NCBI RefSeq assembly: GCF_012848855.1
Contig: NZ_CP051630.1
Coordinates: 3,079,501-3,143,500 of the forward strand
DNA length: 64,000 nucleotides
From: Pyruvatibacter mobilis
GTDB lineage: Bacteria; Pseudomonadota; Alphaproteobacteria; CGMCC-115125
Direction of reading: 5' to 3'
The notes under the pieces are model-generated. The model was not told the DNA's origin. It did not search any database and saw nothing but the letters and a program-made list of their open reading frames with translations. Shown piece after piece: positions 18,514 through 48,329 of the stretch (the first letter of the stretch is position 1; every line of letters begins with the position of its first letter). The position numbers and the translations under genes are program-made.

Positions 18514-19077
18514 TTACTCGGCGGCCAGCGGCACGGGCAGGGCGCCCGGTGCGCCGCCGCCCTGGCGCTCGGCCAGCTTGGCGCGCATGCGTTCGAGCAC
18601 GCTGGCGGCCATGAACAGCTCTTCCTTGGAAAAGCCCTCGCCCAGCTGCTCGGCCAGTTCGCCGAGGCTTGCATTCATGCGGGAATAGGCGTCCAGCCCC
18701 TTGGGCGTGGCTTCGATGAGCTGCGAGCGCTTGTGGGCCGGGTTGGGCACGAAGCGGATCAGCCCCTCGGCCACCATCTCGTTGGCCAGTTTCTGGATGT
18801 GCTGGCGGGAGACGGGGCGGGCGCGGGCCAGCTGCGGCACGGTCTGCGGGCCCTGGGTGATGACGGAATTGAGCATGCCCCATGTGCCGCCGCGCTGGGC
18901 GTTGACGGCACCAATTTCCTGGCCTTCGGCCTGCAGGCGGAAATAGAGCCAGGGCACGCAGTTCATCACGGCCAGCGACAGGTCACGGCGTCCCAGATTG
19001 CGGGCGGGGGTGACGGCCTTAACAAGTTTCTTGGCGCCCTTGCCTGCTTTCTTCTTGCCGCCGTCTTCCTTCGCCAC
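18514..19077 (-). CDS. MarR family winged-helix regulator
   Basis: A 187-residue regulator. After a basic, lysine-rich N-terminus (residues 1-20), the winged-helix domain runs from about 60 to 135, with the recognition region ARPVSRQHIQKLANEMVAEGLI and the wing NPAHKRSQLIEATPKG. It is divergent from a SAM methyltransferase gene; a TGACAA/TTGTCA palindrome in the shared upstream region is a likely MarR site. The inducer is unknown. Confidence 0.88.
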   Translation of the reverse strand: MAKEDGGKKKAGKGAKKLVKAVTPARNLGRRDLSLAVMNCVPWLYFRLQAEGQEIGAVNAQRGGTWGMLNSVITQGPQTVPQLARARPVSRQHIQKLANEMVAEGLIRFVPNPAHKRSQLIEATPKGLDAYSRMNASLGELAEQLGEGFSKEELFMAASVLERMRAKLAERQGGGAPGALPVPLAAE

Positions 19078-44968: not shown

Positions 44969-45154
44969 ATGGCGGACTTCTTTTACATGGATGGCTATGC
45001 GGCCTTCATCTGGCCGGCCTACGGGATCACTGCGCTGGTAACGCTCGGCCTCGTCGTCTGGGCGCTGCGCACCCATAAGGCGGCGCGCGCGCGGGTCGCG
45101 GCCCTTGAGGCGCAAGCGCAGGGTCAGTCACAGCCGGGGAGGGAGACCTCGTGA
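44969..45154 (+). CDS. ccmD: Heme exporter protein CcmD
   Basis: A 61-residue protein with one membrane helix (about 14-35) after an aromatic N-terminus FFYMDGYAAFIWPAYG, and a basic, coiled tail; the standard CcmD form. It stabilises CcmC-CcmE interaction. It starts 4 bp after ccmC and overlaps ccmG by 4 bp. Confidence 0.92.
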   Translation: MADFFYMDGYAAFIWPAYGITALVTLGLVVWALRTHKAARARVAALEAQAQGQSQPGRETS

Positions 45155-45753
45155 GCGGCGACGCTGATGACCGCGAAAAAGCACCCGGTGCCGGCCGCCG
45201 TTACGGTGCCGCCTTGCCGGTTGCGGTGTTCGCGGCATTGGCCGTCCTGCTCTATCTCGCCCTGTTCTGGGGAGACCCCAGCGACATCCCGTCGGCCCTC
45301 AAGGACAAGCCGGTGCCGGAGTTTGCCCTGCCCGCCATTGAGGGGGCGGACAGGCTGCCGGGGCTTCAGACCGCCGATCTCAAGACCGGGGTGCCGACGC
45401 TGGTGAATGTGTGGGGCTCGTGGTGCGCCCCCTGCCGCAAGGAGCACCCGGTGCTCATGCAGCTTGCCGCCCGGGCCGATGTGCGGCTTGTCGGCATCAA
45501 CTACAAGGACGCGCCGGACAATGCGCGCCGCTTCCTCGGCACCCTGGGCAATCCCTTCGAGGCGGTGGGCGCGGACCGCACCGGGCGCACGGCCATCGAC
45601 TGGGGCGTCTATGGCGTGCCCGAGACCTTCATTGTCGATGGGGCCGGCATCATCCGCTACAAGCATGTGGGGCCGATTTCCCCTGCGGATGTCGAAAACG
45701 TGATCCTGCCGGAACTCGAAAAAGCCCGCACGCCTGCGGCGCCTGCGCCTTAG
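45151..45753 (+). CDS. ccmG: Thiol:disulfide interchange protein CcmG (DsbE)
   Basis: A 200-residue membrane-tethered thioredoxin that reduces apocytochrome c cysteines. Anchor helix near 20-39; active site W91-C92-A-P-C95; the acidic and YGVPETFIVD cis-proline region is intact. GTG start overlaps the ccmD stop. CcmE, F and H genes are not in the window. Confidence 0.95.
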   Translation: MSGDADDREKAPGAGRRYGAALPVAVFAALAVLLYLALFWGDPSDIPSALKDKPVPEFALPAIEGADRLPGLQTADLKTGVPTLVNVWGSWCAPCRKEHPVLMQLAARADVRLVGINYKDAPDNARRFLGTLGNPFEAVGADRTGRTAIDWGVYGVPETFIVDGAGIIRYKHVGPISPADVENVILPELEKARTPAAPAP

Positions 45754-45852
45754 GGCCTGATCGCACGCCAAATGCGAGCAATCCGGTTAACAGGCCGGAA
45801 ACCTTCTGCGGCCTAAACCTGTATCACCCGAAAAGTGTTAGAACAGGTCTCG

Positions 45853-46212
45853 ATGGCCCTGCCTATTTCCGCATCGCTGATTTCCGCGCAGGCGCAGGCT
45901 TATGTCTCGCCGAAGAATGCGCGGCCCTATGCCCCGCCGCAGGTCGAGAAACTGGCCGCGCGCGGCAGCAGCAATGCTGTTCAGGTGGAGATTTCCGCCG
46001 AGGCACGGCAGGCGCAGCAGACACGGCAGGATACCCGTCAGGCAGACGAGACCCGTCGGCAGGACGATGCCCGCAAGGCGGATGAGCAGCGCCGGTCGGC
46101 GCGTGACTTTGCCCGCGAGGCCCCGCTGCGTGGCTTCGAGGCGCGGGACGGGCAAGAAAATGCCGGGACCCGCAACACGCGCCCCGGCACCACTCTCGAC
46201 ATTCGTATCTGA
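45853..46212 (+). CDS. Hypothetical protein, Gln/Arg-rich
   Basis: A 119-residue predicted protein (GTG 45835 is an alternative start). The middle (residues 48-95) is rich in Q, R, D and A and probably helical or disordered, with repeated RQDxRxADExRR-like units. No signal peptide or membrane helix is clear, though ALPISASLISAQAQAY at the start is mildly hydrophobic. No domain is recognised. It lies 99 bp after ccmG on the same strand. Coding is moderately likely from its normal codon bias. Confidence 0.55.
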   Translation: MALPISASLISAQAQAYVSPKNARPYAPPQVEKLAARGSSNAVQVEISAEARQAQQTRQDTRQADETRRQDDARKADEQRRSARDFAREAPLRGFEARDGQENAGTRNTRPGTTLDIRI

Positions 46213-46260: not shown

Positions 46261-46923
46261 CTAGCGGCGGCTGGTGCGCTTCTTGGCGGCCGTCTTCTTT
46301 TTCGCTGCGGTCTTCTTCTTGGCAGCGGTCTTCTTGGTGGCTGCCTTTTTCGCCGTGGTCTTCTTGGCGGTGGTCTTCTTAGCTGCGGTCTTCTTTTTGG
46401 CGGTTGTCTTCTTCGCAGCCGTCTTCTTGGCGGCTGCCTTCTTCTTCGTCGCCGTCTTGCGGCCGGTGGCGGCATTCACCGCATCCACTGCGTCATCCGC
46501 CAGGTTGGAGATCACGCCCAGCACTTCAAACAGGGCTTCGCGCTGCTTCGGTGACAGGGCGTCGAGTACCATTTTCTCGGCGCGCACGGCCTGGGGCATG
46601 GTGGCGTTGAGGGCGCGGCGGCCGGCGGCCGTCAGGCTCACCGAGTTGGCGCGGCGGTCGGATGCCGTGCGCTTGCGCTGCAGCAGGCCGCGGGAAATCA
46701 TCCGGCTGATCATGTCGGCCAGGGTGGAGCGGTCGATGCCGGTCTGCTTGACGAGATCCGTCTGGCTCAGGCCCTCATCCCGCTCGACGGTGACGAGCAC
46801 CGCGAACTGACGGGCCGTCAGGCCGCCCGGGCCGACTTCCTTGGTGAAGAGATCCTGCGCGAACTGGGTGGCGCGGCGCAGGAGGTGTCCGGGGGATTGG
46901 TCGAGATCAACTTTCTTAGCCAT
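46261..46923 (-). CDS. MarR family regulator with histone H1-like C-terminal tail
   Basis: A 220-residue protein. Residues 1-150 are a standard MarR winged helix with the HTH LSQTDLVKQTGIDRSTLADMISRMISRGLL and the wing RKRTASDRRANSVSLTAAG. Residues 155-220 are almost only K, A, T: repeats of the KKTAAKK/TTAKK type as in histone H1 and AlgP-like proteins. Such a tail would bind DNA non-specifically. The ATG at 46923 starts MAKKVDLDQSPG. No operon partner; a 0.7-kb gap lies upstream. Confidence 0.9.
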   Translation of the reverse strand: MAKKVDLDQSPGHLLRRATQFAQDLFTKEVGPGGLTARQFAVLVTVERDEGLSQTDLVKQTGIDRSTLADMISRMISRGLLQRKRTASDRRANSVSLTAAGRRALNATMPQAVRAEKMVLDALSPKQREALFEVLGVISNLADDAVDAVNAATGRKTATKKKAAAKKTAAKKTTAKKKTAAKKTTAKKTTAKKAATKKTAAKKKTAAKKKTAAKKRTSRR

Positions 46924-47660
46924 TGATGCCCTCTTGGTGGTTGTCCGGATCGCTCCGGTCGGGTGCCGGTCATTCCCCCCGCCGCTGTCTGCTCCGCCGC
47001 ACTGTGCCATGTGATCTGGCATGGCCCCCCTGCCGGGGCCTCTCCGCCTTCCGGGGTGTTCCCGCTGCGGAGCCGTCTTTGTGCGGCTGGTCTTCGAACG
47101 ACGCGTTGCGGCCAGGGAGTGTACGCATCCTGTCCCTGTGCCGGGCCTCTGGTGAATGTCCGGTCGTGATTGATGGAAACTGTGACTACTCGATACTCTG
47201 TGTACCGGTCCTGGGCGCCGGCTTTGCTCGCCGGTCTTCGCTGCGGTCCCTGGCGGTGTCAGTTCCGTTCAGGACCGGTTGTCCGGGTACGTTGCTTCTT
47301 GAACCTCGTTTGCTGTTGTCCGTCATGCCGGCACTCACGCCTCGCGGCGGGACTGGTCCGTAGCAGTCGCGTCCCGCGGTGTCTGGCCTGGACCGGAGAA
47401 GCTCCGAAGGTCATTCACGAGGGTGGTAACCCTCATTGATTGTCAACATACTAACAGTGCACCAATCAGCACGCGACGCAAGTACGCATTGGCCTTGATG
47501 CGGTCAATTCTGTGCTGGAAATGGTGCCGGTCAGCGTTACGTCAACATCATCGGGCGCGCGGGGTTCCGCGCGGATGGCGGAAACTCCGCATGCGGAGGG
47601 CCGGGTGTGGCTTCAGTGTGACGTTGCCTGCAGAATTAAGACGATGGATGGAAAAAGATC
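46924..47660. other. 737-bp gap without a convincing gene
   Basis: Divergent region between the MarR-H1 gene and a NUDIX gene. Open frames have Cys/Trp/Arg/Ser-rich translations with no homology and look non-coding. A GAGGG-TGGTAA-CCCTC hairpin lies at 47419-47434, next to an AT-richer stretch (47436-47470, with ATTGTCAACATACTAACA) that may hold promoters or a MarR site. Long leader or unannotated RNA possible. Confidence 0.5.
47419..47434. promoter_or_regulatory. Small hairpin beside AT-rich putative promoter stretch
   Basis: GAGGG and CCCTC arms, 6-nt loop. Position only; no known site. Confidence 0.25.
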
Positions 47661-48329
47661 ATGCCGGATTCGGACAAGCAGGCTGACCTTTCAGCGCCGC
47701 CCGCAGATGCTGTCACTGACAATATGTCGGGTGCGGAACGTCACGCGGCGGCGCTGCAGTGCGATGTGGGTGGCGGGCATGCTTTCACCCTGCGTGTGCC
47801 GGAGGGCGACACCCATGCGCGCCATGTGTGTGATGACTGTGGCTATATCCACTATGTGAACCCGAAGATTGTCGTCGGCTCTGTGGTCACCTGGCACGGA
47901 GCGGATGACGGGGAGCCGCGCATTCTCATGTGCCGCCGTGCCATCGAACCACGGCACGGCTTCTGGACGCTGCCTGCAGGCTACATGGAACTCGGTGAAA
48001 CCACAGAGGCTGCGGCCATGCGCGAAGCGCGGGAGGAGGCATGCGCCGATATCCGGATCGATGCGCTGCTGGCGGTCTATTCCATTCCGCGCATCGGGCA
48101 GGTCCAGTTGATGTACAAGGCCACGCTTCTGTCGCCGGATGTAATGGCTGGCGAGGAGAGCCTCGAAGTTGCCCTTGTGCGCAACAATGAGATTCCGTGG
48201 GGCGATCTCGCATTCCCAAGTGTGCGCTGGGCGCTGACACAGCATCGCGAAGTTGCGCAGGCGGGTGCTTTTGTCCCCTTCACCAACCCTGCCGGGGATA
48301 TGGGAAACATGGTTCACGGGGCGGATTGA
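47661..48329 (+). CDS. NUDIX hydrolase with N-terminal zinc-ribbon-like segment
   Basis: A 222-residue protein. The Nudix box G-x5-E-x7-REUxEExxU is complete in GYMELGETTEAAAMREAREE. Before it, HVCDDCGYIHYVNPKIVVG carries a CxxC (C57, C60), as in NUDIX proteins with a zinc ribbon. Likely hydrolyses a nucleoside diphosphate derivative; substrate unknown. The first ~45 residues are not conserved, so a later start is possible. Confidence 0.92.
   Translation: MPDSDKQADLSAPPADAVTDNMSGAERHAAALQCDVGGGHAFTLRVPEGDTHARHVCDDCGYIHYVNPKIVVGSVVTWHGADDGEPRILMCRRAIEPRHGFWTLPAGYMELGETTEAAAMREAREEACADIRIDALLAVYSIPRIGQVQLMYKATLLSPDVMAGEESLEVALVRNNEIPWGDLAFPSVRWALTQHREVAQAGAFVPFTNPAGDMGNMVHGAD

Follow-up and report, generated by a model that had tools for sequence, protein, structure and literature searches.

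A MarR-type regulator of Pyruvatibacter mobilis with a histone H1-like Lys/Ala/Thr tail retained among alphaproteobacterial orthologs

Described systems and the architecture of the regulator

HosA, CouR, PcaV and BpsR are repressors that sense small aromatic acids, CouR being responsive to a CoA thioester. In their solved structures, little of the chain follows the last dimerisation helix, and a polycationic tail is missing. In eukaryotic histone H1, a Lys/Ala-rich, low-complexity, disordered tail extends from a winged-helix globular domain; unlike histone H1, MarR proteins dimerise and recognise specific sites. In Bacteria, disordered Lys/Ala-rich H1-like tails are found at the C-terminus of AlgP and PhaF from Pseudomonas, where they are attached to another type of N-terminal domain, and KPAA repeat peptides from both tails bind DNA in vitro (PMC9239181). 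Finally, actinobacterial topoisomerase I bears a C-terminal lysine-rich arm on a protein that acts on DNA, and loss of the lysine repeats makes Streptomyces TopA leave DNA more readily (PMC7398561).

Here, we analysed a MarR-family regulator encoded on the minus strand of a window of Pyruvatibacter mobilis DNA (the whole stretch under study, 64,000 nucleotides; Table 1). The gene is a single open frame of 220 codons, from an ATG at 46923 to a TAG at 46263-46261. A prior sequence-only reading had placed the gene correctly, the strand being added here, and its description of a MarR protein ending in a nearly pure K/A/T tail is borne out by codon counts and Pfam matches. A frameshift or wrong-strand artefact is ruled out by this uninterrupted frame and by the fact that many independent genomes encode proteins built the same way.

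Table 1. Features of the marR locus (positions are those of the window)
Feature	Position	Strand	Basis
MarR-family regulator, 220 aa (MAKKVDLDQSPGHLLRRATQ...KKRTSRR)	46261..46923	-	ORF, translation, Pfam, AlphaFold2
Winged helix-turn-helix DNA-binding domain, residues 34-92	46648..46824	-	Pfam MarR_2, nearest folds
K/A/T tail, residues 155-220	46264..46461	-	codon counts, pLDDT, tandem DNA array, selection in relatives
Divergent intergenic region, expected operator site	46924..47660	.	distances, alignment with congeners
Block ATTGGTGCACTGTTAGTATGTTG, weak operator candidate	47444..47466	-	alignment with two congeners
NUDIX hydrolase with Zn-ribbon (Zn_ribbon_Nudix + NUDIX), divergent, likely regulated gene	47661..48329	+	Pfam, synteny
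CcmG/DsbE-like thioredoxin, convergent neighbour, end of ccm operon, synteny marker	45151..45753	+	Pfam Redoxin, synteny

The DNA-binding domain is matched by both MarR_2 (PF12802; E 4.6e-13, 49.6 bits for a curated cut-off of 27) and MarR (PF01047; E 3.3e-12, 46.6 bits for a curated cut-off of 24.6). In an AlphaFold2 monomer model built from an alignment of 23 orthologs, the fold is confident, with a pLDDT of about 90 over most of the core, and the helices from 11-30 to 125-152 together with the wing strands make up a MarR fold. By sequence profile as well as by fold, the nearest solved structures are of the HosA, CouR, PcaV and BpsR type (8aga, 6c28/6c2s, 4fht, 6pcp), and Foldseek gives a TMt of 0.81-0.89 to HosA, CouR and BpsR; the winged-helix MarR fold is common to all four and to the protein of the window. 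Arg16, invariant in the 23-sequence alignment, aligns with an arginine of PcaV, presumably Arg15, which we take to be the ligand-pocket residue that contacts the PcaV ligand. Identity with a named regulator is ruled out for the NCBIfam equivalogs Saro_0803, BagL/FevM, BilQ and HpaR, the best score being 68.4 bits for a cut-off of 200. We infer that the protein acts as a dimer and is a MarR-type repressor similar to HosA, CouR, PcaV and BpsR; by analogy with these four proteins only, it may respond to a ligand.

The last 66 residues comprise 27 Lys, 19 Ala, 15 Thr, 4 Arg and 1 Ser, with no acidic residue, so that 61 of the 66 are Lys, Ala or Thr and 31 are basic. The region following the core bears a net charge of +28. 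No secondary structure is modelled in the tail, whose pLDDT is 44-59 per ten-residue block, and it is predicted to be intrinsically disordered. Being Lys/Ala-rich, of low complexity and disordered by prediction, it belongs with the H1-like tails of the AlgP-PhaF kind. AlgP and PhaF differ by their KPAA repeats, by an unrelated N-terminal domain, by their function in granule positioning and by having no MarR domain; conversely, no N-terminal domain of their type was found among the Pfam matches of the P. mobilis regulator, which are to winged-helix DNA-binding families only. Topoisomerase I differs in being an enzyme and not a ligand-responsive repressor, and its repeats, unlike those described here, lie in a more extensive C-terminal domain that includes acidic residues at its end. 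As for histone H1, the likeness is one of layout and composition and not a demonstrated homology.

Repeats and selection in the tail

The tail is encoded by degenerate tandem repeats, in 15- and 30-bp units with about 67-76% matches, and four Ala, three Thr and two Lys codons are used. Such a degenerate array with mixed codons argues that the tail is not the product of recent slippage: the mixed codon usage indicates DNA repeats of long standing and a protein composition that has been retained. The sequence-only reading had held that strong variation by repeat slippage in close relatives would speak against a role for the tail. In two congeners, where 77 residues follow the core (82 in the P. 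mobilis protein), the differences in this region number 25 synonymous and 2 non-synonymous, with no indels; for the core, the counts are 23 and 0. Variation of this type is thus not seen between the congeners, while tail length does differ between species and genera. Over 21 pairs, the pooled pN/pS is 0.155 for the tail and 0.066 for the core, values that come from protein-guided alignments and are biased low where gaps occur. Judged from these substitution counts, the tail is under purifying selection and is not slippage noise.

Locus, orthologs and other K/A/T stretches

The gene order ftsY, septation-type membrane protein gene, NUDIX, marR and ccmG/ccmC/ccmB/ccmA is conserved, sometimes with an MFS transporter gene before NUDIX; the NUDIX gene is divergent from marR and the ccm genes are convergent with it. 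Window genes were named by Pfam, except ftsY, the septation gene and the MFS gene, which were named from their sequences, and genes of relatives were named by similarity to window genes and by reading of the sequence. The NUDIX gene adjoins marR divergently in most orthologous loci and, from gene order alone, it is the obvious and likely target. A 125-aa ORF with Gln/Arg/Asp-rich repeats and no Pfam match lies between ccmG and marR (45835-46212, plus strand).

The operator would be expected in the shared upstream region, which spans 737 bp in the window as against 395 bp in two congeners. Its best conserved part in the alignment with these congeners, which show a few differences there, is the block listed in Table 1. 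In related divergent regions, an expectation-maximisation search recovered a palindromic 18-mer, the GGTGCATATG-type element, present in Parvibaculum and in four other loci (L028, L030, L064 and L076); its log-likelihood of 121, as against 31-37 in shuffled controls, is inflated by shared ancestry. The relatives' element GGTGCATATGA is absent from the window at up to one mismatch. Hence, no clear operator stands out in the window, and the congener-conserved block is just a weak candidate.

Orthologs were sought in 385 alphaproteobacterial genomes, in 398 genomes of the phylum and in a named genome collection, which together are a partial sampling. The search for MarR proteins with comparable tails yielded an ortholog group whose tailed members span, by our own count, 12 or more family-level groups of Alphaproteobacteria (f1, f4, f5, f10, f64, f92, f117, f123, f126, f146, f180 and f183). 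Outside the genus, the cores are up to about 68% identical, and the relatives include Parvibaculum and Tepidicaulis. In a tree of the cores, nearly all tailed orthologs fall in one clade of 52 rows (support 99/93), and the rows outside it are mostly devoid of a tail. Tail and synteny go together: of 56 loci where NUDIX or ccmG adjoins the gene, 52 encode a tailed protein, as against 12 of the 37 other loci (Fisher p = 7e-10, in a test that treats related sequences as independent). Four syntenic homologs (L042, L046, L090 and L092) are tailless.

The tails of the orthologs are rich in Lys, Arg, Ala, Pro and Thr, and vary widely in repeat pattern and in length, from 19 to 861 residues with a median of 45. 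Their net charge stays positive despite these changes of length and of protein end. Those of family f5 number just 24-27 residues and have a net charge of +5 or +6. The longest belongs to a 1000-aa ortholog (L075:4989-7988) from a metagenome-assembled genome, complete on its contig, with an 861-residue Lys/Arg-rich tail of net charge +524; it is encoded by many 57-bp-type units that are only about 65-75% identical, which indicates that these repeats are old. A second assembly (L054) encodes a tail of at least 392 residues (net +211) that runs off the contig. In one lineage (L082/L083), a basic arm of 91 residues (net +25) is found at the N-terminus, with no C-terminal tail. A MarR homolog of 536 aa (L099) has a C-terminal region of 406 residues that is slightly acidic.

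Within the P. mobilis genome, PF12802 has 16 matches, 11 of them above the cut-off, the regulator of the window included. None of the other 15 (10 over the Pfam cut-off) carries a C-terminal K/A/T tail, which rules out that such tails are a trait of all MarR paralogs of this genome. A second MarR-like ORF in the window (18514-19077, minus strand, GTG start) has a short basic N-terminal arm, MAKEDGGKKKAGKGAKKLVKAVTPARNLGRRD. The fusion had been regarded as unusual for MarR proteins; this holds among the paralogs of the genome and outside the ortholog group, but within the group the tail is the norm. A literature search, which covered open-access papers, yielded no description of a MarR protein with an H1-like or lysine-rich tail.

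Other K/A/T stretches in the genome, located by similarity search alone, are found on a trigger factor, two WS/DGAT-like acyltransferases, a GNAT-like protein and a stand-alone protein, the first three types being named by eye from the sequence. In the acyltransferases and the trigger factor (L147, L148 and L151), the K/A/T-rich stretches are C-terminal, while the GNAT-like protein (L149, G000:C1:1971899, plus strand) has an N-terminal arm of about 100 residues; in principle, its action might be directed at the same DNA or tails or at their vicinity. The stand-alone H1-like protein of 142 aa (G000:C1:799920-800258, L146/L150), encoded outside the window, consists almost entirely of Lys, Ala and Thr, plus some Arg, Pro and Val, and similar proteins are present in the congeners G001 and G003.

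Possible roles of the tail

The reading that we favour, and hold to be somewhat better than an even bet, is that of a MarR repressor of its own gene and of the divergent NUDIX gene, with the tail as a polycationic, sequence-independent arm that holds DNA; binding of DNA by the tail, operator, ligand and targets are all putative. The repressor would control both genes from a site in their shared upstream region, the winged helix supplying specificity. Through its charge, the disordered Lys/Ala/Thr tail would add non-specific affinity for DNA, and so might concentrate the repressor locally on DNA and delay its release, as do the lysine repeats of Streptomyces TopA. A small acid, perhaps aromatic, would free the repressor from DNA. 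The sequence-only reading had proposed a built-in, non-specific DNA-binding arm. The MarR core, the tail predicted to be disordered and the selection to keep it do argue for a built-in charged arm, and the variation in length and the independence of position fit a role of bulk charge. Against the favoured reading stand the absence of the relatives' operator element from the window and the four syntenic homologs that have lost or never had a tail. Moreover, polycations bind RNA, polyphosphate and membranes too, and the occurrence of the K/A/T module on several proteins weakens the inference that the MarR tail must bind DNA; to our knowledge, the trigger factor, the two acyltransferases and the GNAT-like protein are not DNA-binding. 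The counterweight is that the MarR ortholog group retains its tail across many families.

Alternatively, the tail could tether the regulator to polyphosphate or storage granules, to RNA or to another polyanion, sequestering or positioning the repressor. The tails of AlgP and PhaF act in this manner for granules, the KPAA tail of AlgP being required for the spacing of polyphosphate granules (PMC9239181), and the two acyltransferases of this genome bear their basic stretches near the C-terminus. We nonetheless judge this unlikely, given that the domain carrying the tail is itself a DNA-binding domain and that the conserved locus, with NUDIX, ccm, ftsY and the septation gene, gives no hint of granules. 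The condensation or bridging of DNA put forward in the sequence-only reading, which would make the protein a nucleoid-associated one headed by a MarR domain, appears less likely again. It has in its favour the H1-like composition, the two orthologs with the longest tails, and the presence of the stand-alone H1-like protein with its counterparts in congeners; but most tails are short, the locus looks like one for local control of a divergent gene, and a dedicated H1-like protein is already encoded elsewhere in the genome. A dimer would carry roughly +56 (twice +28), a charge more in line with local affinity, search or retention than with compaction, with perhaps an exception for orthologs whose tails reach at least 392 residues. 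Compaction is possible for very long tails and is unneeded to explain the common ones.

That the tail is low-complexity drift, with repeats that slippage expands and contracts in G+C-rich DNA and that a permissive C-terminus tolerates, is improbable, and as a full explanation it is ruled out by the selection on the tail together with the conservation of its charge. Indeed, while length variation between genera, tandem arrays beneath the tails and similar stretches on unrelated proteins would be expected from drift, the congener tails are equal in length with mostly synonymous differences, the repeat units are old, with divergence at synonymous sites, the charge persists in at least 12 families, L082/L083 having it on the opposite end, and the other MarR paralogs of the genome are devoid of a C-terminal tail. 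We give least credence to the tail being an acetylation platform, on which a lysine acetyltransferase would tune DNA affinity, although the GNAT-like protein is a candidate enzyme in the same genome (named by eye) and the lysine repeats of Streptomyces TopA have been suggested as acetylation targets (PMC7398561). The genes for the GNAT-like protein and MarR have no genetic link, and acetylation is compatible with a DNA-holding arm and not an alternative to it.

Beyond P. mobilis, we put forward a wider proposal, tentatively and with less than even confidence: a widespread group of alphaproteobacterial repressors whose disordered, polycationic arms are selected for bulk charge and not for sequence, length or position. 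The effect of disordered charged arms on target search and residence time has been studied mainly in Eukaryotes and by simulation. Here, one orthologous repressor occurs with very different tail lengths, in one lineage with the arm on the opposite end, mostly at the same locus and with a simple likely target, so that the effect of the arm is directly testable. If this proposal is true, Bacteria would have their own version of the disordered arms that assist transcription factors of Eukaryotes in searching for their sites and in being retained there, and the natural tails of 19 to 861 residues would be a ready-made test series. It also suggests that bacterial H1-like tails are not restricted to nucleoid or granule proteins.
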